Below are positions 1 to 14,497 of a DNA stretch of 32,402 nt, one piece after another. The DNA is taken from assembly GCA_016764895.1 (NCBI GenBank), contig JAESRA010000186.1:1-32402 (forward strand). The letters run 5' to 3'. Each line of letters begins with the position of its first letter. Position 1 is the first letter of the stretch. The notes under the pieces are model-generated. The model had not been told where the DNA came from, did not search any database, and saw only the letters and a program-made list of their open reading frames with translations. This stretch comes from Phycisphaerales bacterium. Lineage in GTDB: Bacteria > Planctomycetota > Phycisphaerae > Phycisphaerales > UBA1924. Made by a program: the position numbers and the translations under genes.

Positions 1-1908
1 AGAAACCGTCCCGAACTCAGGGCCGATGAAGAGCCCGGCTCGTTTTTCGGTGCCGGTTTCGTCGTCGCCTTCCATGTACCGACCCTCGGCACAGATATAT
101 CTCCCAGGCCAAGGGGTGAGCGATGAGAACTTGATGCGGCCTTCCTTGTGGGCCTGCTGCACGCCGGAGGTCTTGAGGTTCTCCAAGATCATTTGTCCGA
201 AGTCCACTTCGCTGTCGGTGCGAGAGGATTGCTTGGCAGGGTCGATCAGCTCGTCATCTTCATCCACGCCGAGCGTGCGGTGTGGCGAGAGACTCTCGAC
301 GGTAAACGGCCCGGCGACACGCACCTTCTTCTTGTCCTCGTACGGCTTGTCATAGAGATACTTAGAATCTACCTTGGCCGCGATGGACGCATCGATCTCC
401 TTCTGCCGAGCGATCCGCTGCTCCCACCATTGGGCGTGCAGTTTCTTAGTAGTGTCCGACCATTTGTCCTCTGGCTCGCGTGGAATCTCCCACTCTTCCC
501 ACTTCTGTTCGAGAGCATTATTGAGATCCTCGCGGAGAGGTTCGAGTGTCTCTTGGAACTTGTCCCAGATGACATCAATTTCTAAGTTGTTGGCAATGGA
601 CTTGAGCATGATGTGAGGCACCCGCTCATAAACAAATCCATGGCGAATGTCTCCAATTACAGGCTGTAATTTTGGTGCAGTCGAAGTTATTTCGGCTTCC
701 TTGAGTTGGCCATCTTCGGAATCGGTCAATATGTAAAACGGATAGCGAGAACCCATAATGCGAGCACGGGCTAGAGCAAGGGAAACTCGTGATGTATCAA
801 TTGTGATCCAACGCCGCCCCCATTGTTCGGCAACGGTGGCCGTGGTGCCAGAACCGCAAGTTGGGTCCAGTACGAGGTCTCCAGGGTCCGTTGCCATGAG
901 GATACAGCGCTCAACGACCTTTGTATTTGTCTGAACTACATATATGTTTTGTACAGCAAAAGTACTTTGAATAGTGTCAGTCCACATATTGCTGAATGGG
1001 GCAACTGGAAAATCATCGGCGTATCGTTTGAATGTAAGAGTATTTCCTGCCCCGAACAATCGGTCGGCAAGCGACAACCGACCAAGACCAATTACATGGG
1101 TTTTCCAATGCTTGTTGCCCCCGATTTCAAATGACTGACCTCGCCAAATAAATGGTTTCGACCCAATCTCAGAAGCCCCTTGAGAGGTTAAATTAGATGC
1201 CTGAAATCGGCGAAAATCTGAATGCCCATCTTTAAGAGCTTGATTTACACTCATCATTTTACGATCAGACAACTCGGCTCGATTGAAGCCGGATTCGATC
1301 ATTTCTTTTGGTCTGTAATATTGTAGTTGACGAACTTTACAAACGGATTTTCGTTTTGAATACCAGAGGATGAAATCGCATGTATTTGCCAAATAGTCTG
1401 TGGCTTGGAATGCAGTCTTTCTGAACTGAATTAAACTGATAAAATTCTCATCTCCGAATACTTCATCCATTACCGCCCGAACACGGTGAACATTTTCATC
1501 CCCGATTTGAATAAAAATGGATCCTGTGTCAGCAAGAAGATCTCTTGCAACGGTCATCCTGTCACGCAAATAGGTCAGGTACGAATGAATCCCATCTCGC
1601 CATGTGTCGCGGAATGCTTTGACTTGTTCTGGATCGCGAGTGATGTGTTCGGCTTTCCCATCCTTCACATCACGGCTTGTTGTTGACCACTGGAAGTTCG
1701 AGTTGAACTTAATGCCGTAAGGCGGATCGAAGTAGATGCACTGCACCTTCCCACGCAAACCTTCCCGCTCGGCGAGCGAGGCCATGACCTGGAGCGAGTC
1801 GCCGAGGATCATGCGGTTGGTCCAGTTGGTGTCGTGCTGATAGAACTCGGTGCGTGCATCGTCATCGGGCAAGCCGTTGAAGTCGGCGTAGAGGTCCGCA
1901 AGCCGCAT
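1..1908 (-). CDS. mod: Site-specific DNA-methyltransferase (adenine-specific, beta-class/type III Mod-like), catalytic part; 3' end beyond the window
   Basis: Open minus-strand frame from ATG 1908 to position 1, absent from the ORF track because it has no stop in the window. Translation: MRLADLYADFNGLPDDDARTEFYQHDTNWTNRMILGDSLQVMASLAEREGLRGKVQCIYFDPPYGIKFNSNFQWSTTSRD... with DPPY (motif IV) before DPTCGSGTTA (motif I), the beta-class order. Confidence 0.9.
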   Translation of the reverse strand, partial: MRLADLYADFNGLPDDDARTEFYQHDTNWTNRMILGDSLQVMASLAEREGLRGKVQCIYFDPPYGIKFNSNFQWSTTSRDVKDGKAEHITRDPEQVKAFRDTWRDGIHSYLTYLRDRMTVARDLLADTGSIFIQIGDENVHRVRAVMDEVFGDENFISLIQFRKTAFQATDYLANTCDFILWYSKRKSVCKVRQLQYYRPKEMIESGFNRAELSDRKMMSVNQALKDGHSDFRRFQASNLTSQGASEIGSKPFIWRGQSFEIGGNKHWKTHVIGLGRLSLADRLFGAGNTLTFKRYADDFPVAPFSNMWTDTIQSTFAVQNIYVVQTNTKVVERCILMATDPGDLVLDPTCGSGTTATVAEQWGRRWITIDTSRVSLALARARIMGSRYPFYILTDSEDGQLKEAEITSTAPKLQPVIGDIRHGFVYERVPHIMLKSIANNLEIDVIWDKFQETLEPLREDLNNALEQKWEEWEIPREPEDKWSDTTKKLHAQWWEQRIARQKEIDASIAAKVDSKYLYDKPYEDKKKVRVAGPFTVESLSPHRTLGVDEDDELIDPAKQSSRTDSEVDFGQMILENLKTSGVQQAHKEGRIKFSSLTPWPGRYICAEGRYMEGDDETGTEKRAGLFIGPEFGTVS

Positions 1909-2227
1909 CTTCCTCCTTGGCCTGCTCCTGCTTGTGCGTCCTGCGGAGCAGATCATCAATGAGCACCTTGGGATGAACCTTCTCCTGAATAAACAACGGC
2001 GGCGCATTGACCACCAGATCCGACCAATCCTGCTCATCCTTCCCCCGCCACACCAACTGCGGGTCCAGATCCCGATTCCGCCGCTCATATGCTACTTGAA
2101 TGGGCGTCTGATCTTCCTTTGACATCACAGACTGAAACTCAGCCGTCGGGATGTTTGGCCGCTTGGCTTCATCATGCGTGAGCGTTTCGACTTGCTTGCG
2201 GGATTTCTTCTTTGTCTTCTTAGCCAT
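1862..2227 (-). CDS. N-terminal fragment of the Mod methyltransferase, out of frame with the catalytic part
   Basis: MAKKTKKKSRKQVETLTHDEAKRPNIPTAEFQSVMSKEDQTPIQVAYERRNRDLDPQLVWRGKDEQDWSDLVVNAPPLFIQEKVHPKVLIDDLLRRT... resembles the usual N-terminus of this Mod family. The frame leaves the Mod frame near 1905-1912 and stops at 1862. The track ORF starts at a GTG at 2248; ATG 2227 is the likelier start. Confidence 0.75.
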   Translation of the reverse strand: MAKKTKKKSRKQVETLTHDEAKRPNIPTAEFQSVMSKEDQTPIQVAYERRNRDLDPQLVWRGKDEQDWSDLVVNAPPLFIQEKVHPKVLIDDLLRRTHKQEQAKEEDAACGPLRRLQRLAR

Positions 2228-2244
2228 GAATGGATACTTTCGGT

Positions 2245-3087
2245 TCACGCCTCAAGCGAGTCAGGGTTCTTGTTTGATTTTTTCTTGTCCGACTCAATGC
2301 GTCGTTCAACCTTCTTCAAGTCTTCCGCAGCAGGCAAGCTCTCAGGACGAATGCCACGATTGATCAATGTATCACGAACAGCTTGATTATTCGTGACATG
2401 CTCTTTAGAGATTGCTGCTTCCGACCTCATGCCCTTCTCGCGAGCATTGTGGATTGTGATCTCTGTGGCGAAGTCTTTGGCTTTGAGAATGATGGTCGGC
2501 GCAAAGTCCGCGAGTGGTCGCCCGGATGGAACTTTCCACTGTGCCTTCATGGCTCGCGTCGTCTTGCCAAAGAGTGCCTGGTCGCCCTTGCTACGGATCA
2601 GGGCGAAGTCCTGGTTGCCACCGGTTTGCTCAAAAATGACACCGGAGAGTTCTTTCTCTGTATTGGTCAACTTCTTCCTCGCAGAGACCCGCTCGGCTTC
2701 AAGAACCCGCTGCTCGATCAGCTCGGCTCGGCGGGTCTGGATGGCGAAATATGTTTGGGCAAAGGCGATCTGTGACTTGCTTGGATCTCCATTCTGGGCA
2801 ATGAGATAGCACGCATAGCGGGTGAGCATAATATCAGGAATTTCCCGCTGACTGCCTGAGCCGAGATCAACCATTTTCCCGACATCAGCAAAATGGTCTG
2901 CTACCTCGTGCCCTGAGACTTCACATGCCGTTTTTGCCTTGGAAACGACATTGAGGAAGTTGTCCCACTTGGTGTAGCCCAGCAAGTGCTGAAGATCGCG
3001 TGCAAGCCAGTATTCGATGCCGCCATCGGTCTGCTGCGCGTGCCCCTCAAATGTATCGGTGAGATTACGGATTATATCAGATTTCAT
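2245..3087 (-). CDS. dinD: DNA-damage-inducible protein D (DinD-like)
   Basis: 280 aa: IEYWLARDLQHLLGYTKWDNFLNVVSKAKTACEVSGHEVADHFADVGKMVDLGSGSQREIPDIMLTRYACYLIAQNGDPSK..., characteristic of DinD. Start overlaps the res stop (ATGA at 3084-3087). Confidence 0.92.
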   Translation of the reverse strand: MKSDIIRNLTDTFEGHAQQTDGGIEYWLARDLQHLLGYTKWDNFLNVVSKAKTACEVSGHEVADHFADVGKMVDLGSGSQREIPDIMLTRYACYLIAQNGDPSKSQIAFAQTYFAIQTRRAELIEQRVLEAERVSARKKLTNTEKELSGVIFEQTGGNQDFALIRSKGDQALFGKTTRAMKAQWKVPSGRPLADFAPTIILKAKDFATEITIHNAREKGMRSEAAISKEHVTNNQAVRDTLINRGIRPESLPAAEDLKKVERRIESDKKKSNKNPDSLEA

Positions 3088-6000
3088 TCTTTCCCCTCCA
3101 CCAGTGAACTGCTTACAGATTCAATCATCTCATTGAATTTTTCTTCCACTTTCTGTTCAAAATCTTGTTGCATTTCATACACATCAGTAAACTCCGCAAA
3201 TGCCCAACGACCAAATCGTTTGTGGTTATTCACACCTGGCACCCAGTAAGTCTTCATGGTGCTGGCTTTTTCTTTGGCATCCTCTCCGCGATACCCCTTG
3301 ATCTCCACAATGAGATTCAACAAATCTTCATCCCCATGCCCATCATCTACAAGCACTATGAAGTCAGGAATGTACCGACGGGATACTGAACCAAACTGGT
3401 ATGGAACTTCAAACCCAAGGCTGTGGTTCTTGACATAGGCCTTCACCTTTGGATGAGCCTCAACCACACGACAAAACTCCGCTTCCCAATCGCTGTCAAG
3501 AATAACCCAGTTCACATGCGATTTGTCTACAGCCGTTTCCCAGCGATCTCGCTTGGAAGTGTGGAAGTTCACATTGGCTGTCGAACCAGCCTGGTTATAT
3601 GGGTCAAGGACTGCTTTCACAGGACTCTCGCCTACAAGGCTTTCGGTAATCCCGCGAGTGATTTTCTCACAGGCCATGTCCATCAGGTTTTGATATTCCA
3701 ACTGGGCTGGATATGTGCCACCTTTACACTCAAGACAACTATTCAACCATTGGCGAGTAATCCGCTTGAGCTGCCCAAAGAGATAATACTTGGGGTCGTC
3801 TCCAGGATCACGCCAACTCGTTTCAATGAGACGCTGCGTTATCTTGAAAGACAATGTAGATTGCCTCATATCCTTTGTATGATCTAGTGTCAGATTCGCT
3901 GTTTCACCGATGATCCCAGCATTTTGGGTTTCAGTGGCACCAACCAAATCTGGTGTCAAGACCAAAACTGAATCAGAATCAAAGCTTGCCGTCAGCTTTT
4001 CTTCCGGCAGTTCTACTCTGTATCCTGCAACTCTGGGAAACTCGATACAAAGATCATCCCGCTCAGGACGCATCGCCTTCACATGAATTGTCTCTCTCGG
4101 CGGCTGCGGTGGTGCGACTACTGGCTTGGCAGTGAAGTCAAACGGTATACCGAGCACATCGGCATACTCAACATTGAACAAACCATCTTCATTCAGATCA
4201 TACGACTGCCGCCTCAGTGCCCGCCCGATGACTTGCTCGCAAAGAAGTTGCGTGCTGAACGCACGAACTCCAAGAACATGAGTCACCGTATTCGCATCCC
4301 AACCTTCTGTAAGCATTGAAACTGAAACTACGCAACGGATGGCTTCCCCAAGCCTTCCTTTTTTACCAACGGTATTCATGACCTCTCTAAGTAAATCTTG
4401 ATCGCTGATATTCTCAGCTTGCCTCTTATCACCAGTGCGTTCAATAATTTCTCTGCGGAACAACTCGATCTCATCGGATGCCATTGCACGAAAGTTCTTA
4501 TCGAGAGCATCGCCTGACTCCAACTGACTACTGTCAATTAAAAGTGTGTTGGGACGGGCAAGAGCATTTCCATGTTCATCATGGTTTCTGAACAAATCGA
4601 GCCGGCCATGCTCAAGCGTGCTTGAGCCATCCTTTTTTTCTCTCAAGAATCCCGACACATAGTCGTAAACCAGCTTGGAAGAGGCTGTATTGTTGCACAC
4701 AATGATAAAACAAGGAGGAACTCCAACTCCTGCCTGTGCCCAGAGTTCAAATGTCTGTTTGTAGTGGCCATACAAGGCTGCTAATGCCGTCTGCAACTGC
4801 GCTGGCAAATCTAACGGGTCATTGATAGCATCCTTGCTGCGACGCTTCTTAGGCATATCGGCACGAATATGAGACCAAAGCTCGCGGTACATTGGCATTT
4901 CACCATGCGGGATATTGTCCGAAATAGGAACACGCGGCAACTTGACGATTCCGCATTCGATCGCATCCATGAGTGAGAAATCGCACATGGTCCACGGAAA
5001 CAAAGTTCCTTCTGCATAGCCTGAGCCACGAAGAAAGAATGGTGTAGCGGACAAATCGAATACCTTTAGTACACCAAGCTTTGACTCAACAGCTTCAATC
5101 CCACGGAACCACATTCTTGCGGCTTCTTGGTTATCCTTCGCCTCATCCGCATCGTCCCCCTTGAGATCCGTTTCATTTGATTCGCCTGGTTTCTCAGCGT
5201 AACAGTGATGGGCTTCATCATTGAGAACAGCAATCTTCTTCATCCCCATCAATTCTGGCATGACACGCTGGATCATCTGGCCAACACTCTCAGTCGTTGA
5301 GAGTTCTTCACCGCGTCCCTGTAATAATGCTCGCCCGCCCTTAGAAATGTCCATCGTTTCACGCAACTTGAAAGCGTGATAATTTGTGATGACGATTTTC
5401 GCACGATCAATATCACCAAGCATATCGCCTGGTACGATCTCTCTACTCTTGTAGTAGCTGTATGGATCATTTGGCATCAAAACTTTCAGACGGTCACGAA
5501 TCGTTATTCCGGGAGCTACAACAAGAAATCCGCGAGTGAATTTCTTACTTGTTGGCCTTCGCACTGCGTTGACTGTTTGCCATGCTATCAGCATTGCCAT
5601 GACGGTTGTTTTTCCCGCACCAGTAGCCAGCTTTAATGCCAATCTTGACATCCCGCCATTGGCTGCATCGTTGGCATCGTTTAGATGTTCAAGAATTTTC
5701 TTGCATTCTTTTCCGAGCTTTGGTGCTACCTCAGTCAGCCAAATAGTGGTTTCCACAGCTTCAACTTGGCAGAAAAACGGCCGTAAACCTTCAAACTTAT
5801 GGTGACGCCAATGCTGAAGCAAGCGTGCTGTTTCAGGTGTCACTTTCCAATCGCTTGGATTGGGTATTGCTCGCCAATGCCCAACCAACCTGCGGACTTC
5901 ATTAATTATTGGAGTGGGATCATACTGTTGGTCTGCGGTGGACAGCCCATGCTTATCCGTAAAGACCAACTCAAGCTCTTCTTTTCTGCGTTTCTTTGTC

Positions 6001-6149
6001 TTTGGAATCGGAGTAAAATACTCCGCCCGCCGTCGGTTAGAAACGACATCGTTTGTTGGTTGCCCACTATCATCTTCCAACTTCCAGTGCCGGGCTGGAT
6101 AGTCGTATGGCGAGTTCAGGATTGGCTGTTGAAAGAAATCTTGCGTCAT
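3084..6149 (-). CDS. res: Type III-like restriction enzyme, DEAD/DEAH helicase-nuclease (BPTD_3080-like family, from recollection)
   Basis: Walker A LATGAGKTTVMAMLIAWQ, DEAH-type LNDEAHHCY, motif VI QVIGRALRR, C-terminal PD-(D/E)xK-like PDFIVLV...LIVEIKGYRG. N-terminus MTQDFFQQPILNSPYDYPARHWKLED matches the family; ORF is open to ATG 6161. Confidence 0.92.
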   Translation of the reverse strand: MTQDFFQQPILNSPYDYPARHWKLEDDSGQPTNDVVSNRRRAEYFTPIPKTKKRRKEELELVFTDKHGLSTADQQYDPTPIINEVRRLVGHWRAIPNPSDWKVTPETARLLQHWRHHKFEGLRPFFCQVEAVETTIWLTEVAPKLGKECKKILEHLNDANDAANGGMSRLALKLATGAGKTTVMAMLIAWQTVNAVRRPTSKKFTRGFLVVAPGITIRDRLKVLMPNDPYSYYKSREIVPGDMLGDIDRAKIVITNYHAFKLRETMDISKGGRALLQGRGEELSTTESVGQMIQRVMPELMGMKKIAVLNDEAHHCYAEKPGESNETDLKGDDADEAKDNQEAARMWFRGIEAVESKLGVLKVFDLSATPFFLRGSGYAEGTLFPWTMCDFSLMDAIECGIVKLPRVPISDNIPHGEMPMYRELWSHIRADMPKKRRSKDAINDPLDLPAQLQTALAALYGHYKQTFELWAQAGVGVPPCFIIVCNNTASSKLVYDYVSGFLREKKDGSSTLEHGRLDLFRNHDEHGNALARPNTLLIDSSQLESGDALDKNFRAMASDEIELFRREIIERTGDKRQAENISDQDLLREVMNTVGKKGRLGEAIRCVVSVSMLTEGWDANTVTHVLGVRAFSTQLLCEQVIGRALRRQSYDLNEDGLFNVEYADVLGIPFDFTAKPVVAPPQPPRETIHVKAMRPERDDLCIEFPRVAGYRVELPEEKLTASFDSDSVLVLTPDLVGATETQNAGIIGETANLTLDHTKDMRQSTLSFKITQRLIETSWRDPGDDPKYYLFGQLKRITRQWLNSCLECKGGTYPAQLEYQNLMDMACEKITRGITESLVGESPVKAVLDPYNQAGSTANVNFHTSKRDRWETAVDKSHVNWVILDSDWEAEFCRVVEAHPKVKAYVKNHSLGFEVPYQFGSVSRRYIPDFIVLVDDGHGDEDLLNLIVEIKGYRGEDAKEKASTMKTYWVPGVNNHKRFGRWAFAEFTDVYEMQQDFEQKVEEKFNEMIESVSSSLVEGKE

Positions 6150-6438
6150 ATCACCCCGCATCTCACTCTAACAGCACTTCTATGTCAAGTAGATCTATTC
6201 GTGACAAGTAGGGCTATCCACAGAGAGAAATCTGTACTCATGGTCTGTTCACCAATCATATCCCTAAACCGTCCGCAATACATTCGAGAGACAGCTCAAA
6301 TCCCAACCAATTGCCCAAATTAACCACATGGTCGTTTGGCGCGAACTGGCGCAGCGACGGTGTTCAAACCCAAGCAGCCATGTTTTTTGAAGTGCTAAAA
6401 AGTGTTTGAAATCAATGGCTTGGGGTCATAGAAAGGCG

Positions 6439-6483
6439 CTGATAAGGGCGAGGTCGGCTGTTCGAGTCAGCCCAGGCCCACCA
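6439..6483 (+). other. 3' half of a tRNA-Ile(GAU) gene (anticodon loop to CCA), probable attachment-site remnant
   Basis: CTGATAA-GGGCG-AGGTC-GGCTG-TTCGAGT-CAGCC-CAGGCCCACCA matches bacterial tRNA-Ile(GAU) from the anticodon loop to the 3' end with encoded CCA. The 5' anticodon strand (CGCCC expected), D-arm and acceptor 5' strand are missing upstream. Confidence 0.8.
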
Positions 6484-6521
6484 CCCGTACTCCGCAGATT
6501 CCCGCCATTCTTCCAATTCAG

Positions 6522-6549
6522 AAAAAAGAGCCAAAATCGCGTTTGGCTC
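6522..6549 (-). terminator. Rho-independent terminator downstream of hipA
   Basis: Minus strand GAGCCAAA-CGCGAT-TTTGGCTC followed by TTTTTT: perfect 8-bp stem plus U-tract. Confidence 0.8.
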
Positions 6550-6648
6550 AACTTTGGCGCGGAAATCCCTCAAAGCACTATAATGCCCCCCACTTACTTG
6601 ATGAAACATGGTTGGCATTCTTTGCTCTAACCATCACACAGATATCGC

Positions 6649-7944
6649 CTACAGGCGATGAACTGAAGCGATTTGGTCTGCCTGCTTTGTAGAGACCCCC
6701 GCTTGTGAAGCGAACTCATGCCATTGCTCTACGACTTCCTTCACTTCGCCCACGATTGATTCAGCCAAGCCTCGCTTCATGGACACAGTTTCCGCAACGG
6801 CCTTGAAATCACCCATCGTGAATCCAGAACGCTTGCCGTTCAAACTCATCTGGTGCTTGGAAGTCCAACGACCCGATGGGTTGTAGCTGTACATGACATC
6901 AAAGGCAGGCGATAGTGACCACTTGCCCTGCTTGTCCATCAAGAACGCGATGTTCTTGACATGGTCGTCCTGATTTCGAGCAATGACATTGAACACCATT
7001 CTGCGAAACTGTTCTTCAATATCATCCATCGCCAGCCCAAGCTTACGGATTACGAGCATTGCTTGCTCGTAAGAATGAGCACCGGCATCGTTGAAGTCAA
7101 AGTGAGCCATTGCCCCCAATGACTGCATGTGCAGCTTCTCTCCACTGGGCAACCGATCGAAGCGTTGGGTCATAAAATGGCGACGCCCACTTTCCTCGAA
7201 AATCCTGCATTCGGCCATGCGAATACCTGCTGCCTTTGCCATCAATGAGTACGCATATTCAATCGCACCAAACCCCACCGGGTCTGCCAGTTCTTTGTCA
7301 CTGTTGCCGTCCACGCCATCAAACTTGAACAGCCAGTATTCAAAGCCTTCTGGTGCAGTGACCTGCCCAGACCGCACCTCGTTTGTTTCAGGGTTCCATG
7401 CGATGACCGCCTTTGCACGGGCACCACCAGCCGAGGCACCGACACGAAGAATCTCTCGCAAAGCGTGTTCTTTTTCCTCGTCGGCAAATGATGCTTGAAA
7501 ATCTTCTCGCCCCTGCAAAACTTCTGTGGCAAGGCTCACAAGTTCATCCACATGTACCAACATTGATTCATCTGCTTGTAATCCCTTGGCTGGGCGAAAC
7601 TCCAATGCACCCATCCCTCGCATACCCGTATAGCAGAGCCGCTCGACTGCATCTATCTCGTCAGGCAATCGCCCTTGTGCTGAAAGCCATGTATTGATAA
7701 CCGCATTGCCGAACTTGTCCGGCAACGCATCAGCAAGCAACCCCGGCAGGCCATGAAATGAATCCATTTCAAGATCAGAAAAACGGTAGATACGATCGGA
7801 GAGCGGCATCATCAACGGGGCAATCTCAATCCCGCTACCAACAAAAGCATCCGTGTACTGGAACGAGGCGACTTGCCTCGGCCCCTCAACCGTGACTGCA
7901 CCGATTTGACGACCCCACATCCGAACTTCTGCAATTGTGCTCAT
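6649..7944 (-). CDS. hipA: HipA-family serine/threonine kinase toxin
   Basis: 431 aa with HipA-type motifs: LPGLLADALPDKFGNAVINTWL, VGASAGGARAKAVIAWN, MTQRFDRLPSGEKLHMQSLGAMAHFDF, VFNVIARNQDDHVKNIAFLMDKQGKWSLSPAFDVMYSYNP. Confidence 0.95.
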   Translation of the reverse strand: MSTIAEVRMWGRQIGAVTVEGPRQVASFQYTDAFVGSGIEIAPLMMPLSDRIYRFSDLEMDSFHGLPGLLADALPDKFGNAVINTWLSAQGRLPDEIDAVERLCYTGMRGMGALEFRPAKGLQADESMLVHVDELVSLATEVLQGREDFQASFADEEKEHALREILRVGASAGGARAKAVIAWNPETNEVRSGQVTAPEGFEYWLFKFDGVDGNSDKELADPVGFGAIEYAYSLMAKAAGIRMAECRIFEESGRRHFMTQRFDRLPSGEKLHMQSLGAMAHFDFNDAGAHSYEQAMLVIRKLGLAMDDIEEQFRRMVFNVIARNQDDHVKNIAFLMDKQGKWSLSPAFDVMYSYNPSGRWTSKHQMSLNGKRSGFTMGDFKAVAETVSMKRGLAESIVGEVKEVVEQWHEFASQAGVSTKQADQIASVHRL

Positions 7945-8321
7945 GATTCACCATCCCCATCATTTTCATTGCCCCAAGTCCAGTCTTTCTCGCCTTGCTT
8001 TGATTGAGCCGACCGCCCTGATGCCCGCTTGCGTTCCTTGCCCTGCATACGGAGCAACTCCACCGGGCTTGATGGAGGTGGTGGTACAAAGCTATCAAGA
8101 TTGTTCAGCAAACCGAGCACACGGAGAATACGAATCAGGTTGGTCAACTGGGTGGATCCCCCAGCCTCTAGGCGTTCAAGGGTGCGTTTGGAAACTCCAG
8201 CCTCGTTGGCAAGCTCTGCCTGGGTAAGATTCTGCTTGAGACGGTACTGGGCCAGCCGCTGGCCAAGTTCTGCAAGCACTATTGAATCTGTCATCTGATT
8301 GGCCTTTTCTTTATTCGCCAT
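7941..8321 (-). CDS. hipB: HipB-like HTH antitoxin/repressor
   Basis: Xre-type HTH (LAELGQRLAQYRLKQNLTQAELANEAGVSKRTLERLEAGG); ATGA overlap with hipA (7941-7944). Confidence 0.92.
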   Translation of the reverse strand: MANKEKANQMTDSIVLAELGQRLAQYRLKQNLTQAELANEAGVSKRTLERLEAGGSTQLTNLIRILRVLGLLNNLDSFVPPPPSSPVELLRMQGKERKRASGRSAQSKQGEKDWTWGNENDGDGES

Positions 8322-8370
8322 TACTGTCTACTTTATCGTCTATATTGCTGCAATTCGCCAGTTTTGTCTA
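8313..8370. promoter_or_regulatory. Candidate hipBA operator/promoter repeats
   Basis: Imperfect 18-bp direct repeats ATTCGCCATTACTGTCTA (8313-8330) and ATTCGCCAGTTTTGTCTA (8353-8370), 15/18 identical, 40 bp apart, with a further GTCTA at 8338; the first overlaps the hipB start codon. Confidence 0.5.
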
Positions 8371-8463
8371 GTTATTTCTAGGATTGCACCCTAAATACCA
8401 CACCAAATCTGTTTTTTTGCCCTTTATTCTGACATTTCATGACGAATATGCGAAAATATTGGC

Positions 8464-9225
8464 ATGGAGACAGCCCCCCACCGGCAAAGCAACCCAAGTA
8501 CAGCAGGGGAAATACGCCACCGTGTAGAACGCGACGGAGACAAATTGTGGTGCACCAATGACTTCGACGATCTACCACATCAAGCGGTTGCCCAGTCACT
8601 CTCTCGCATGAGCCGCTCTGGCGAACTCAAACGGTTGAGCAAGGGGGTGTATTACCGCTCTCGCAAAACCGTCTTCGGGGAAAGTAAACCCAACCCATCA
8701 GCCTTGCACCAACTGCTCACCAAAGATCACACAGTATTCCCCGCTGGCATAACCGCCGCCAATTTGCTGGGCTTTACCAGCCAGAACCCCGCCCGCACAG
8801 AGTTGGCAACGACAGCAAGAAGCTTGCCTCGCATGCTTCTTGGTAAAGATACGGTTCTACACACAAGACGACCAGAAGCTTGGAACAGTTTGACCACCGA
8901 GTGTGCGGCATTGCTCGACTTCATGCGAACCCGAGGGGTATCCACAGAACTCACTTCCCACGATACGGCAAAGCGATTGTTGGTGTTGATAGGTCAATCC
9001 AATCGGTGGGAACAACTGACACAAGTTGCCAGCACCGAACCACCACGGGTTCGTGCAATGCTTGGTGCCATAGGCGAACACCTTGATTGTGATCCAAGTG
9101 TATTGACCCATCTTCGCCAATCACTCAATCCAGCATCAACCTTTGACTTCGGGATACTGTCAGCATTGCCTAACGCCCACGCATGGCAGAGCAAGACGAG
9201 TAGTATTGGCAATCGTTTGGGCTGA
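8464..9225 (+). CDS. AbiEi/DUF6088-like winged-HTH antitoxin-family protein
   Basis: 253 aa; N-terminal wHTH pattern (WCTNDFDDLPHQAVAQSLSRMSRSGELKRLSKGVYYRSRKT) as in AbiEi/DUF6088 proteins. Divergent from hipBA. Confidence 0.7.
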   Translation: METAPHRQSNPSTAGEIRHRVERDGDKLWCTNDFDDLPHQAVAQSLSRMSRSGELKRLSKGVYYRSRKTVFGESKPNPSALHQLLTKDHTVFPAGITAANLLGFTSQNPARTELATTARSLPRMLLGKDTVLHTRRPEAWNSLTTECAALLDFMRTRGVSTELTSHDTAKRLLVLIGQSNRWEQLTQVASTEPPRVRAMLGAIGEHLDCDPSVLTHLRQSLNPASTFDFGILSALPNAHAWQSKTSSIGNRLG

Positions 9226-10314
9226 ATCCCCAAACAACTTCTCTATTGAGCGGGCAGCATCCATCAGGTAATCGGGATGGTGCTTTGCATAGATTTCTGT
9301 TGTCCGCGATTCGGTGTGCCCCAGCATCCCCGCAATCTGACGGAGTGGAACACCGGAAGCAGCCATCAGTGTTGCTCCCGTATGCCGAAGTGTGTACGGC
9401 GTGACATCATCCAAGCCAGCCCGTATACATGCTCCACGAAATGACTTCTTCACCGTACATAATGGGTGGCCTTGGTATTCGAGAATATACCCTCTCTCTG
9501 ATTCGTCCATTGCTTGCTCAAGCATTGGACGCAGACTTGGGGTGATAGGCACCACAGGACGACGCTTGTTGGATTGCATACTGCCGGAGGGCAAAAAATC
9601 AATGCGGTTCCAATCCAAATCCACCTGCTCTTTCCGCAATGAAAAGATAGCGATTGGCCGCTGCAATGTGTGCAATGCCAACATCACAAAGAGATGCAAA
9701 TGAGGATACTCACACGCTTCGATCAAACGACGCACCTCATGAGATCGAAGGAACCGATCCCGTGGCGGTGGCGACGGCAACAACTCAATATGCGGGTAAG
9801 ACTCCAATCTCCCCCGCTTCCACGCAAGCCGAAGTGCGGCCTTCATCACACCCAATTCTCTATTCAAGGTTCCGTTTGATGCTGTGTATCCTTGCTTGAG
9901 CATGGTTCTTTGCCGCCAATGGATATATGACTGCTGGGCATCCAATCCGAAATCCGAAACCAGATTGATACCGGATCGTCGCACAAACTCATTGAAGTGC
10001 TTGAGGCTTGTCCGGCTAGCCGGATAATAATGCTTGATCCGCCTATTCATCCCTTCTGCGTAATCCACCAACACATCAAGCAGCATCACATCTTCTGGGC
10101 GACGCTTCTTCGGGTGAAGCTCTTCATGCTCTTTGACAAATACAATCAACCGTCGCTTTGCTTCATCAAGATCGCGTGTGCCCGTGCTTTTGCGACGAGC
10201 GCCGCTGGGCTTTCCGCTGATGGACTTTGGTTTCCAATAAATAAAGTAGTTTGGTGTATCGGGTCTGCTGACAAGCATGTGGCCTTCATATTCCCAAACT
10301 GGTTCGTAGAACAT
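9160..10314 (-). CDS. Tyrosine recombinase/integrase (Int1)
   Basis: Arm-type N-terminus (YFIYWKPKSISGKPSGARRKSTGTRDLDEAKRRL); catalytic segments LHTLQRPIAIFSLRKEQVDLDW, TPYTLRHTGATLMAASG, MLGHTESRTTEIYAKHHP. Strong SD GGAGGAAGG before ATG 10314. Confidence 0.93.
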   Translation of the reverse strand: MFYEPVWEYEGHMLVSRPDTPNYFIYWKPKSISGKPSGARRKSTGTRDLDEAKRRLIVFVKEHEELHPKKRRPEDVMLLDVLVDYAEGMNRRIKHYYPASRTSLKHFNEFVRRSGINLVSDFGLDAQQSYIHWRQRTMLKQGYTASNGTLNRELGVMKAALRLAWKRGRLESYPHIELLPSPPPRDRFLRSHEVRRLIEACEYPHLHLFVMLALHTLQRPIAIFSLRKEQVDLDWNRIDFLPSGSMQSNKRRPVVPITPSLRPMLEQAMDESERGYILEYQGHPLCTVKKSFRGACIRAGLDDVTPYTLRHTGATLMAASGVPLRQIAGMLGHTESRTTEIYAKHHPDYLMDAARSIEKLFGDSAQTIANTTRLALPCVGVRQC

Positions 10315-10637
10315 TCTTTTCCTTCCTCCGCCTGCTGTGCAAGATAAGCACGCACATGCTCAGGCGTATACAGCACCCGTCTACCAATCCTCAGATGCCT
10401 GAGACGACCCGCCACACGCTCTCGATGCACGGTATTGCGATGAATCCGAAGCATCGAGGCCACTTCTTGTGTTGTCCAGACCACCGGCACACCATGCCGA
10501 CTGGGGTGTTTATCCTGTTTCTTGTTTTTCAGTTGTTCATCCAGCGCGCGCTCAGCGTGAGAACTCAATGGTTGTGCCCATAATTCTGCACACAAATCAT
10601 CTTGGTGTGGCGCAGCATCATCAATACCACCACTCAT
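10146..10637 (-). CDS. Excisionase-like HTH DNA-binding protein
   Basis: WTTQEVASMLRIHRNTVHRERVAGRLRHLRIGRRVLYTPEHVRAYLAQQ is an excisionase/MerR-like HTH. Start overlaps the upstream ORF stop (ATGA at 10634-10637); 3' end overlaps int1. Confidence 0.8.
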   Translation of the reverse strand: MSGGIDDAAPHQDDLCAELWAQPLSSHAERALDEQLKNKKQDKHPSRHGVPVVWTTQEVASMLRIHRNTVHRERVAGRLRHLRIGRRVLYTPEHVRAYLAQQAEEGKECSTNQFGNMKATCLSADPIHQTTLFIGNQSPSAESPAALVAKARAHAILMKQSDG

Positions 10638-11239
10638 TCCAGCCGCTCCACGCCTGGATATGGGATCACTGGAAGCCCTCGCGCCCGCCGATTCTTATTT
10701 GCCTCAGCAACCAATCGTCGTGCATCAACAAGACGGCCATCGAGTAGGAAATCACGACGCTTCGATGGCCTGACCCGATCACCAAGCTCGTCAATTGCCA
10801 CTTGCAAAGGGCGCGATGGCCAAGGATCAGCCAATGAAAGACTAGGAGGCCTTGGCCAATCGGTGGACGGGAAAATGATTTCTCCAAGATTTCCAACCAA
10901 CTCGCCAAAATTGGGGACTTTATTGTCATTGGCTGGAAGCCGACCTCTCCGTTCAAGGTCAGTCCAAGGGTACACCAACTGCTCCCGACCATGACGATCA
11001 ATCACAACTCGAATACATTTGGGTGGTGAATCATCATAAAAATCATTGAATGTCACCTTGCCCCCACTCAGTTCTTTGATTTTGCTCAAAATGGTGTCGT
11101 TGGGCACCCTCTCTCCGCTGATGTATCGAAGCACCGTACTTCGACTTTTTACACCAAGCAAGACTCGGAGTTGTCCAGGAGTCATGCCTGATTGATACAT
11201 ATAATCTGCTAATTTCATCCAACTGTCATAGCGTACCAT
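10634..11239 (-). CDS. HTH regulator-like protein of the Int1 module
   Basis: From internal ATG 11239: MVRYDSWMKLADYMYQSGMTPGQLRVLLGVKSRSTVLRYISGERVPNDTILSKIKELSGGKV... with a Cro/YdaS-like HTH. The 310-aa track ORF start at 11566 would overlap immA antisense. Confidence 0.65.
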   Translation of the reverse strand: MVRYDSWMKLADYMYQSGMTPGQLRVLLGVKSRSTVLRYISGERVPNDTILSKIKELSGGKVTFNDFYDDSPPKCIRVVIDRHGREQLVYPWTDLERRGRLPANDNKVPNFGELVGNLGEIIFPSTDWPRPPSLSLADPWPSRPLQVAIDELGDRVRPSKRRDFLLDGRLVDARRLVAEANKNRRARGLPVIPYPGVERLE

Positions 11240-11308
11240 TCGTTGGTGTGAAACCGAGTCCCCAGCCACAGCACCTTTGACTGCACGCCACCGCTTGCGA
11301 GTAAAAAC

Positions 11309-12061
11309 ATGACCGCATACGACAGCACTCCATTTCTTCTCCGCTTGTCGGTTCGTGCAGCAGATGCCCGTGTGGAACTGGCCGCTTCTACGCTGCTTGA
11401 CAAAATCCGACACAAACTCTCGATTTCTGATCTCCCCCTCCCACTGCCCATCGACCAATGGATTGAAACTCCACTGGGATTCGACTTTGCCATCGTTGGC
11501 GACGATCAACTTGACCCAGAAGTGTTGGGATTGGCACGCCCAACACTCAATCAAATCCTGATTCATGAATCACTGCTTGAGCATGAAGGTCGGTTTCGAT
11601 TCACCTGTGCCCACGAGTTGGGGCATTGCATACTCCATAAATCTGTTGCCGAGGAGTTATCCGATGCTGAACTCCCCCGTAGCGGAAAAATATCCGCGAT
11701 TGAACATGAAGCAGATCGCTTCGCTTCATCCCTGCTAATGCCACTGAGCACACTGGCACAACAACTTGCAAAAGTGATGCGAGATCATCAACTCAACAAC
11801 TCATGCGTTGAACTACTCCGAGGTGATGATGTTCGCACGGTGTGGCTCTGGCGACGGTGCATCTTGCCTGCACTCTGCGATACCTATGGTGTATCACGGG
11901 CAGCAATGGCCTACCGATTCCGCGAACTCAGACTCCCCGGCCAACGAAGGATTCTCAAGCCCTCAATGATTTCACTGATGGTTGCCCCAGAAAAAACCCT
12001 TGCGGACTTGCCACTTGATCGAATCATCGTGCGTGATGGCATACCAGTGCTCGAAGAATAA
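11309..12061 (+). CDS. ImmA/IrrE-family metallo-endopeptidase
   Basis: HExxH in FTCAHELGHCILHKS and downstream EHEADRFASSLLMP, the ImmA/IrrE signature. Confidence 0.92.
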   Translation: MTAYDSTPFLLRLSVRAADARVELAASTLLDKIRHKLSISDLPLPLPIDQWIETPLGFDFAIVGDDQLDPEVLGLARPTLNQILIHESLLEHEGRFRFTCAHELGHCILHKSVAEELSDAELPRSGKISAIEHEADRFASSLLMPLSTLAQQLAKVMRDHQLNNSCVELLRGDDVRTVWLWRRCILPALCDTYGVSRAAMAYRFRELRLPGQRRILKPSMISLMVAPEKTLADLPLDRIIVRDGIPVLEE

Positions 12062-12105
12062 TTTTCAGCTTTTTCGGATATGGGTCTTGATCTTACCCTG
12101 AAATC

Positions 12106-12125
12106 TGTTAGCATGTATGCGAACA
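12106..12125. promoter_or_regulatory. Operator 1 upstream of the XRE gene
   Basis: TGTTAGCAT-GT-ATGCGAACA, inverted repeat with one mismatch; plausible -10 TAGCAT lies inside and -35 TTGATC at 12087-12092 (16-nt spacer). Confidence 0.7.
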
Positions 12126-12149
12126 GGCAATTTCGCTTGAGAGAACACC

Positions 12150-12548
12150 ATGCCCACAAAGCCAACCCAACCCATCGGCGAGATCATCCGCCATCAACGC
12201 ACGGAAGTGCTCATGGTTGGCTTGCGGGATATGGCCAAACTGCTTGAGATCGCCCCGGCACACCTGACCGACATCGAAAAAGGACGCCGTTCGCCATCAG
12301 AAGCCCTTCTTCTGCGCATCACAATCCAATACAAAATCGACGAAGCCACCCTGCGTGCAGGCTGGGGTAAGGCAGAATCCGATGTTGGCGAGATTGCATC
12401 CAGCAACGCCATCAATGCAGCCAAAGCCCCTGAACTGCTCAGAGCAGCCAAAGACCTTGATGCAAAGCATTGGGACGCTTTGATCTCTCAAGCCCGCACA
12501 ATGGCCGACAAAGTCGCCCGCAAGACCACCAAACCACCCAAGTCGTAA
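12150..12548 (+). CDS. XRE-family transcriptional regulator
   Basis: IGEIIRHQRTEVLMVGLRDMAKLLEIAPAHLTDIEKGRRSPSEALLLRI is an Xre HTH. Confidence 0.88.
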   Translation: MPTKPTQPIGEIIRHQRTEVLMVGLRDMAKLLEIAPAHLTDIEKGRRSPSEALLLRITIQYKIDEATLRAGWGKAESDVGEIASSNAINAAKAPELLRAAKDLDAKHWDALISQARTMADKVARKTTKPPKS

Positions 12549-12588
12549 ACCTTGGATTATCCATTGGGTTGATTTCACACGGACACAG

Positions 12589-12608
12589 TGTTCGCATGAA
12601 TGCGAACA
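12589..12608. promoter_or_regulatory. Operator 2 upstream of the AlpA-like gene
   Basis: TGTTCGCAT-GA-ATGCGAACA, perfect 9-bp inverted repeat; TTGATT at 12569-12574 and TCGCAT as -35/-10 candidates (17-nt spacer). Confidence 0.75.
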
Positions 12609-12609
12609 G

Positions 12610-12867
12610 ATGGAGCGAATCATGCATTCAAATCTGAACCAATCCCCCACCACCCCAGACATCAACGACCGCTGGCTCAGGTGCCGAGATGTTGCCATGT
12701 TGCTGGCTGTTTCCGAACGCCAAGTCTGGCGGCTGGCTCAGAGCGATGGAGTGTCTCCACCAATCTTAGAGCCAACCCGCCTGCGTATGCCTGGGCGAAC
12801 ACGACCGATGACCCGCTGGCGGCTCAGTGATGTTCACCGATTGCTCAATCCCAGTGAAGACATTTGA
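12610..12867 (+). CDS. AlpA/excisionase-like small HTH protein
   Basis: WLRCRDVAMLLAVSERQVWRLAQSDGVSPPILEPTRLRMPGRTRPMTRWRLSDVHRLLN is AlpA/phage-regulator-like; located directly before an integrase. Confidence 0.75.
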   Translation: MERIMHSNLNQSPTTPDINDRWLRCRDVAMLLAVSERQVWRLAQSDGVSPPILEPTRLRMPGRTRPMTRWRLSDVHRLLNPSEDI

Positions 12868-12913
12868 GATTCCTATTCATGGTGCCAATTATCTAGAAAT
12901 CAGGAGCGTACCA

Positions 12914-14497
12914 ATGCCAAGAATCACCACACGCGAGCGACAGAAAGCCAAGCAAGCAGGACGACGGCCTCGCTACCTGTGCACATGGACTGATGAGCAT
13001 GGCAAACGCTGCCAACGATTGGCATTTACTGATAAGAACGCCGCCACACGATTCGAACTCGATCAACGCGACCGTGCCAAAGCAATCAAAGCAGGCCTGA
13101 TTGAACCTGAACAAGAAGCAATACGCGAACACCGCACCGCTTGTATCTCCATCCATTTGGATGCGTTTGAGCAGCAACTCGCCCTTGTGGGTATTGGTGG
13201 CGGACGACGCTCCAAACCTTCTCTCAAATATGTGCAAAGCGTGCGGGTAAGCCTTGACCGATTTGTTCAATGGACAGGGCCAAAGTATTCAAACTCAGTA
13301 AAAAATATCCAAGACATCACCCTTGAACGAGCCATTGCCTGGGCTGACGATCTCGAAACTCACGGCTGGACAACACCCACAGGCAAGCACAAGCCCTACA
13401 GCGGCCATTCAATCAACACCTTCATCGGGAACCTGACTATGTTCACCGCATGGGCCGAACGAACAAAGCGAATCACCAGCGATCCACTCAAAGACTTTGG
13501 CCGCCGCCGTACCTCAAAGCTCCACAGCCAACGAACCCATATCAGGCGTTCCATCACACCCGAGCAAATCGCGAGTCTGCTGGAAGCCGCAGAATCCAGA
13601 CCGCTCACCGCAGCACGAACAATCAATCGTGGCCCACGCAAAGGCCAAATCGGTGCCAAAGTCGCCGAAGATCGTATCACCCAACTCATCGCCAAAGGCC
13701 AAGAGCGGGCAACGCTCTACCTCACACTGTTCTGGACAGGGCTACGCCGCTCCGAAGCCAAGGCATTGGAATGGGGTGATGTGATACTCGATGCCCAGCA
13801 GCCGCTACTCAGACTCCGTGGGCACACCACCAAGTCCAAGCGATCCGATGTACTCGCTCTCCATCCTGAACTCGTATCACGGCTTGTTGAGTTGAAGGCA
13901 TCACGCAGCCCGGAAGTTTCCGATTGTGAGCCGGTGTTCACCACCATACCAAACCGCTACACCTTCAGAAAAGACCTCGAAGCCGCGGGCATTGAAGCGG
14001 TGCAAAATGACCGTCACTTTGATATGCACGCTATTCGTGTATCACTCACCACCTTCTTGGCAAGCCAGGGTGTTGGGCAACGCATCGCCCAAGCCCATAT
14101 GCGGCACACCGATCCAAAGCTCACCGCAATCACATACACCGATGCAGAAGCCCTTCCCATCGCCGCAGCCATCAACACGCTGCCTGACATTTCTCAGAGA
14201 AATAATTCAGTAAATGGAGCGAATCAGCCGCCCGCAGGTCGCAATGGTTCAAGCGGCGAAAGAAATCCGGCCGCTTATAGGCCGCTTTTGAGGGGCGGTT
14301 TTGGGCAGAATGAGTCAATTCCTGTCACAAACCAAGACATAAAAAAAGCAGAAGGAGCAAGTCGCAAACCCCTTACGGGGCATGACTTGTCACCTTCTGT
14401 CATAATCAGGGAGACAGGACTTGAACCTGCGACCTTCTGGTCCCAAACCAGACGCTCTACCAAGCTGAGCTACACCCTGTTGTGCCCGGAAGTGTAG
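12914..14497 (+). CDS. Tyrosine recombinase/integrase (Int2); the last ~90 codons are probably read-through of terminator and tRNA antisense
   Basis: Catalytic segments TLFWTGLRRSEAKALEWGD, FDMHAIRVSLTTFLASQG, AHMRHTDPKLTAITYTD. Start set at ATG 12914 (MPRITTRERQKAKQAGRRPRYLC). The C-terminus RETGLEPATFWSQTRRSTKLSYTL is translated antisense tRNA. Confidence 0.92.
   Translation: MPRITTRERQKAKQAGRRPRYLCTWTDEHGKRCQRLAFTDKNAATRFELDQRDRAKAIKAGLIEPEQEAIREHRTACISIHLDAFEQQLALVGIGGGRRSKPSLKYVQSVRVSLDRFVQWTGPKYSNSVKNIQDITLERAIAWADDLETHGWTTPTGKHKPYSGHSINTFIGNLTMFTAWAERTKRITSDPLKDFGRRRTSKLHSQRTHIRRSITPEQIASLLEAAESRPLTAARTINRGPRKGQIGAKVAEDRITQLIAKGQERATLYLTLFWTGLRRSEAKALEWGDVILDAQQPLLRLRGHTTKSKRSDVLALHPELVSRLVELKASRSPEVSDCEPVFTTIPNRYTFRKDLEAAGIEAVQNDRHFDMHAIRVSLTTFLASQGVGQRIAQAHMRHTDPKLTAITYTDAEALPIAAAINTLPDISQRNNSVNGANQPPAGRNGSSGERNPAAYRPLLRGGFGQNESIPVTNQDIKKAEGASRKPLTGHDLSPSVIIRETGLEPATFWSQTRRSTKLSYTLLCPEV
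14341..14399 (-). terminator. Long hairpin rho-independent terminator just downstream of tRNA-Pro
   Basis: Minus strand CAGAAGG-TGA-CAAGTC-ATG-CCCC-GTAA-GGGG-TTTGC-GACTTG-CT-CCTTCTG, then G and TTTTTTT: three paired segments plus U-tract. Confidence 0.8.
14406..14479 (-). tRNA. tRNA-Pro(UGG)
   Basis: CAGGGTGTAGCTCAGCTTGGTAGAGCGTCTGGTTTGGGACCAGAAGGTCGCAGGTTCAAGTCCTGTCTCCCTGA folds as a cloverleaf; anticodon loop TTTGGGA gives anticodon TGG; no encoded CCA. Confidence 0.95.

Follow-up and report, generated by a model that had tools for sequence, protein, structure and literature searches.

The window analysed here, a stretch of 32,402 nucleotides from a Phycisphaerales contig, contains two closely matching palindromes, one before the gene of an XRE-family repressor and the other before the genes of a putative excisionase and a tyrosine integrase, with an ImmA-like protease gene alongside. 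This arrangement raises the question whether a single repressor controls both its own synthesis and the excision of an integrated element. Taken as a whole, the evidence discussed below makes it highly probable that the locus is an XRE/ImmA excision switch with two operators and, as part of the same explanation, that it is the control switch of a genomic island integrated in a tRNA-Pro gene. The features concerned are the following:

1-14403, no strand: right-hand part of the island, with a restriction enzyme, DinD, HipA, an AbiEi-like protein and a second Int/HTH pair, followed by the switch
11309-12061, plus strand: ImmA-like zinc peptidase (M78) with intact HELGH and EADRFA motifs (Pfam Peptidase_M78, 7.8e-14)
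12087-12092, plus strand: -35 element TTGATC of the XRE promoter, with TTGAC/TTGAT conserved at this position in nearly all of 33 loci
12106-12125, plus strand: operator OP1, overlapping the -10 element of the XRE promoter, in which GTTA shows no or almost no variation across 33 loci
12150-12548, plus strand: XRE (ImmR/DdrO-like) repressor of 132 aa (HTH_3, 5e-5)
12569-12574, plus strand: possible -35 element TTGATT of the xis-int promoter, shared without change by L034 and L035
12589-12608, plus strand: operator OP2, a perfect palindrome before xis-int, which a matrix built without OP2 ranks as the best second site
12622-12867, plus strand: AlpA/HTH_17-like putative excisionase, assigned from the Pfam matches of its positional equivalents (mechanical open reading frame 12610-12867)
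12914-14497, plus strand: tyrosine integrase Int2, 527 aa in the integrated state, reading through the tRNA gene (Phage_integrase, 8.7e-14)
14404-14452, no strand: attachment core attR of 47-49 bp, with a second copy where the element ends on the far side
14406-14479, minus strand: tRNA-Pro(TGG), the integration target, with empty sites in genomes G326 and G335

The order ImmA-OP1-XRE-OP2-xis-int is that given by an earlier, sequence-only reading, namely protease, then repressor, with the recombination genes downstream, and the M78 match together with the intact HELGH motif bears out its adjacent ImmA metalloprotease. Profile searches with ImmA recovered CapP (4e-18), the best solved relative, and IrrE (3e-6), and a structure model of modest confidence matches the IrrE/PprI folds. 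The XRE profile matches the HTH domains of DdrO, ClgR and ICEBs1 ImmR (E=0.003 for ImmR), as well as SinR, with DdrO and ClgR closest among natural proteins; an AlphaFold model of XRE (4-sequence alignment, pLDDT 52) was set aside. The AlpA-like protein of the window has no Pfam match of its own, and its positional equivalents in a 29-member set contain HTH_17 in 23 cases and Phage_AlpA in six; its likely start is the ATG at 12622, 6 nt 3' of a GGAG, as in L034 and L036. In Int2, the near-invariant columns R278, K307, H372, R375, H398 and Y408 fit the R-K-H-R-H-Y catalytic set.

The two palindromes, of 20 bp each, lie exactly where they had been reported, and both are 9-2-9 inverted repeats, with the qualification that only OP2 (TGTTCGCAT-GA-ATGCGAACA) is perfect and that OP1 (TGTTAGCAT-GT-ATGCGAACA) has a single arm mismatch (A12110 in place of the C required by the other arm). 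Matches to the palindrome with up to three mismatches number four in the window (two places, both strands), against 0.04 expected per dinucleotide shuffle. The genome scan for additional sites that the sequence-only reading had suggested, run on the whole 2.6 Mb assembly, returned only the OP1 and OP2 places at 0-1 mismatches and one further place, on another contig and weak with 3 mismatches; thus, no operator of similar strength beyond these two was found in the window's genome. In the close relatives L034 and L035, both sites are retained with 0-1 changes while the flanks vary (L035 and L036 are two labels of the same locus).

As proposed earlier, a TTGAT(C/T) hexamer precedes each site at -35 spacing. 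The accompanying claim of a plausible -10 element at each site is right for the first site, where TAGCAT (12109-12114) lies 16 bp from TTGATC and is conserved in relatives, and weak for the second, where the candidate TCGCAT is poor, having no A at position 2. A generic sigma-70 promoter scan listed neither promoter and gave background level only. Across the family, the first operator overlies a TTGACT-N17-TAGCAT promoter in nearly all of the 33 loci, from many genera, with TAGCAT embedded in TGTTAGCATRTANGCGWACA; position 5 of this operator is A in 33 of 33 loci, which would fit a compromise between the half-site GTTCGC and the -10 box TAGCAT. Before the second operator, the loci of canonical layout contain a nearly invariant TTTTTTTG tract, 8-15 bp upstream and shortly 3' of the ImmA stop, with a G 8 bp before the operator in most loci; the window lacks this tract and has TTGATT and the poor TCGCAT in its place. 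An intrinsic terminator was considered for the tract and rejected, because no hairpin precedes OP2 (mean z -0.08); the tract more probably belongs to the xis promoter.

Of 397 genomes of the class, 30 contain relatives of XRE; two public contigs, one titled Planctomycetota, have them as well. In the phylum sample there were none outside the class, the plasmid search found none, and the phage search gave a single weak match of 34%. The analysed set comprises 33 loci from 28 genomes, with at most 20 kb of sequence context each; a degraded operator or XRE, or a weak match, led to the exclusion of L038, L068 and L069, the operators being degraded or missing in L038, L063 and L068. When an operator matrix was built from OP1 sites only, leaving out the tested locus and its close relatives, the second operator came out as the best other site within these contexts in 32 of 33 loci, directly following the repressor and protease genes and ahead of xis/int. 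Its scores are usually far above those of shuffles; in some loci (e.g., L050, L052 and L055) they do not exceed the best shuffle score, and for these loci the argument rests on the fixed position. The second operator of nearly all canonical loci lies 14-26 bp after the ImmA stop, about 990-1240 bp from OP1, and in loci of the window type (the window, L034, L036, L037 and L064) it lies ~40 bp after XRE and 466-511 bp from OP1. Moreover, the half-sites of the two operators co-vary within loci (permutation p=0.0019 for 21 representatives, with kinship only partly removed; shared ancestry inflates the conservation and covariation figures alike), and L107, a relative from a viral contig that did not contribute to the matrix, shows GTACGC/GCGTAC half-sites in both operators.

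The gene content is similarly stable. An M78 zinc protease is linked in 32 of 33 loci, all 32 matching M78, with HExxH conserved. The exception is L064, in which no ImmA was detected within 20 kb, so that the protease may be dispensable there or supplied in trans. Small HTH genes and then a tyrosine integrase follow the second operator: 30 of 31 large downstream open reading frames match Phage_integrase, and a co-directional integrase occurs within about 3 kb in 31/33 loci, by a profile that includes the same proteins as the Pfam count, with one of the two exceptions at a contig end. Outside the genus of the window, the integrases are mostly only 12-30% identical to Int2, as against 46-66% for the repressors; thus, the switch is more conserved than the recombinase that it would control. 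The usual order elsewhere is OP1-XRE-ImmA-OP2-xis-int, with ImmA directly 3' of XRE in most relatives. In the window lineage, ImmA lies 5' of OP1, and the protease gene is therefore not placed under the promoter of the repressor; L037, whose ImmA gene is 3 kb upstream, is grouped close to the window by the XRE tree, at no more than moderate support.

The attachment sites define the element on which such a switch would act. The 3' half of tRNA-Pro (14404-14450/52) recurs in far-end contigs of the same genome (C260) and of two others (G291:C15 and G397:C68), and the sister genomes G326 and G335 have an empty site with one core copy and both flanks joined; these repeats and empty sites argue for an element able to excise and integrate. 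The first 141 bases of the window match the end of C260 at 98.6%, so that this contig is probably the left part of the island, which would be about 31 kb long if the contigs join. C260 encodes a TrwC relaxase, a coupling protein, ArdC and a CBASS set (cyclase, E2 and SAVED-HNH). Relatives target tRNA-Gly, Asp, Ser, Thr and Met genes, and four related islands, whose ends rest on paired repeats of 38-63 bp, span about 48-69 kb; CBASS, restriction and Hachiman-like genes are among the cargo of related islands. The TrwC relaxase was rejected as a family hallmark, since relaxases do not adjoin the switch in complete genomes, as was a phage nature, with no structural-gene family among the 25 commonest PHROG and the 25 commonest Pfam matches upstream of the switch.

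With respect to mechanism, we propose that an XRE dimer binds OP1 over the -10 element of the XRE promoter, thereby restricting the amount of XRE, and that binding to OP2 would keep the AlpA/HTH_17-like xis gene and int off, such that the island stays integrated. Once activated, probably by a signal of DNA damage (for instance single-stranded DNA, to which CapP and PprI respond), the ImmA-like protease would cut XRE and open both promoters, whereupon Xis and Int could excise the island. The cleavage of ImmR by ImmA (PMC8960796) and the activation of PprI and CapP by single-stranded DNA (PMC10904395) make these steps likely. The footprint of the two operators in 32/33 loci and their covarying half-sites support sites for the repressor at its own promoter and at that of the excision genes, and the predicted autoregulation and xis/int repression by one repressor, as first suggested from the sequence, accordingly gain in plausibility.

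The likeness to ICEBs1 ImmR/ImmA drawn in the sequence-only reading holds for the protein families and fails for the layout. In this Bacillus subtilis element, ImmA cleaves ImmR, and int, immR and immA are transcribed counter to the Pxis operon (PMC8960796). The planctomycete system shares the XRE repressor and the metallopeptidase, with a predicted control of excision; the divergent xis operon is not encountered, the repressor, second operator, xis and int being co-directional with int inside the repressed unit, and the ImmA gene of the window lies 5' of OP1. As to conjugation genes, C260 has the relaxase and coupling protein, and relaxases in other genomes do not adjoin the switch. In TnSmu1 of Streptococcus mutans, a different element from another phylum, an ImmR-like repressor and ImmA keep the integrated element quiet, and the element circularises in response to mitomycin C (PMC10233336); the main text of that paper does not use the words operator, binding site, palindrome or inverted repeat. 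In the CapH/CapP pair of CBASS operons, the metallopeptidase cuts an XRE-type repressor and is stimulated by single-stranded DNA (PMC10904395, PMC10233336), but CapH represses a defence operon whereas the proposed targets here are xis and int. Deinococcus PprI is likewise activated by single-stranded DNA; its DdrO/IrrE (PprI) system has the same repressor and protease families, there controlling a chromosomal DNA-damage regulon, and its operator motif RDRM is stated as known only in Deinococcus (PMC10904395). A limited literature search, with subscription papers mostly outside it, found no such switch described in planctomycetes.

These parallels bring up the alternative that XRE/ImmA is mainly a stress or defence regulator of cargo genes, of the DdrO/IrrE or CapH/CapP type, and lies next to int incidentally. 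The affinity of the XRE HTH to DdrO and ClgR and of ImmA to CapP would agree with this, as would the CBASS, restriction and Hachiman-like cargo. Against it, besides OP1 and OP2 there is almost no strong operator in the 20-kb contexts (L061 has a third), and scans of 30 genomes give few others; furthermore, the second site stands before xis/int in nearly all loci despite the divergence of the integrases. We thus regard this alternative as improbable.

The same low probability attaches, in our estimate, to the view that OP2 is a site of activation by XRE, or an arm-type site for Int/Xis, that resembles OP1 through shared ancestry. A perfect palindrome near recombination genes is what such a site might look like, and in tRNA-Gly elements similar palindromes, with TTGCGTCA repeats on their flanks, occur 123 bp inward of the far attachment site; yet the half-sites of OP2 co-vary with those of OP1, and OP2 lies between the T-tract or -35-like element and the start codon, where a bound protein would be expected to block transcription. 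Finally, fortuitous similarity or a dispersed repeat, to which the mere two copies in the window might point, is refuted by the fixed-position conservation in 32/33 loci and by the shuffle and genome counts, and we assign it a negligible likelihood. The two-operator excision switch therefore remains our preferred explanation. What began as a guess about two sites in a single contig thereby becomes a conserved system controlling a set of tRNA-targeting islands, several of which carry anti-phage defence genes, and the operator provides a precise motif from which the starting point of such islands can be predicted. Cross-talk among islands with a common repressor and operator can now be tested directly, as can the question whether DNA damage is linked to the spreading of defence genes.

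A further form of control may reside in the integrase gene. The Int2 open reading frame runs through the attachment core (14404-14497), and integration therefore swaps its C-terminus: joining attP in silico gives a circular-form integrase of 604 aa (588 aa in the two relatives), against 527 aa in the integrated state. The circular-form tail is similar in the window and two relatives, a W..LP..I..I-like motif is again present in the tail from genome G003, and dN/dS of the integrase tail is 0.5-0.85; in several Gly-type islands the change affects only eight residues. The integrase frame overlaps an antisense tRNA in 22 of 31 loci. In archaeal SSV-type integrases, integration splits the integrase gene, a situation that the window integrase resembles without being the same. 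We tentatively raise the possibility, doubtful as it is at this point, that these islands combine two state-dependent controls, namely the XRE/ImmA repressor switch with its two operators (and a third in some elements, 123 bp inside the far attachment site) and an integrase with a state-dependent C-terminus. If true, integration would set the direction or activity of recombination through the integrase sequence in addition to repression.

Several minor observations concern these sequences. Orphan open reading frames with a tRNA-like peptide at the head and the integrase tail described above at the end occur in further genomes, and the left ends L088, L089 and L090 formed part of the integrase C-terminus comparison. 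In L038 (G282), the operator looks shortened (CTGTTAGCGAACAG) and the integrase keeps its C-terminal tail in one uninterrupted frame. In tRNA-Gly islands, the third operator-like palindrome lies exactly 123 bp inward of the far attachment site, at L095:6865 and 15401 (G052) and L096:6168 (G248); it is weak in L140 (G171), and in G052 and G248 it is flanked by TTGCGTCAG direct repeats and TGACGCAA; a similar palindrome arrangement is present at L097:9496 (G077). In C260, the probable left half of the island, the CBASS set (L088:12069-16551) adjoins an XRE-M78 peptidase fusion protein (PADLOC RmrA). On the minus strand of the window, the gene of a BPTD_3080-family restriction endonuclease (3084-6161) overlaps that of DinD (DNA damage-inducible protein D; 2245-3087). 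Positions 6440-6484 hold a lone stretch resembling a tRNA 3' end (GGCTGTTCGAGTCAGCCCAGGCCCACCACC), with no complete tRNA and with the surrounding 148 bp 96% conserved in L091; this may be what is left of the attachment site of a nested element to which Int1 (9160-10314) and the HTH_17 protein paired with it (10146-10637) would belong.
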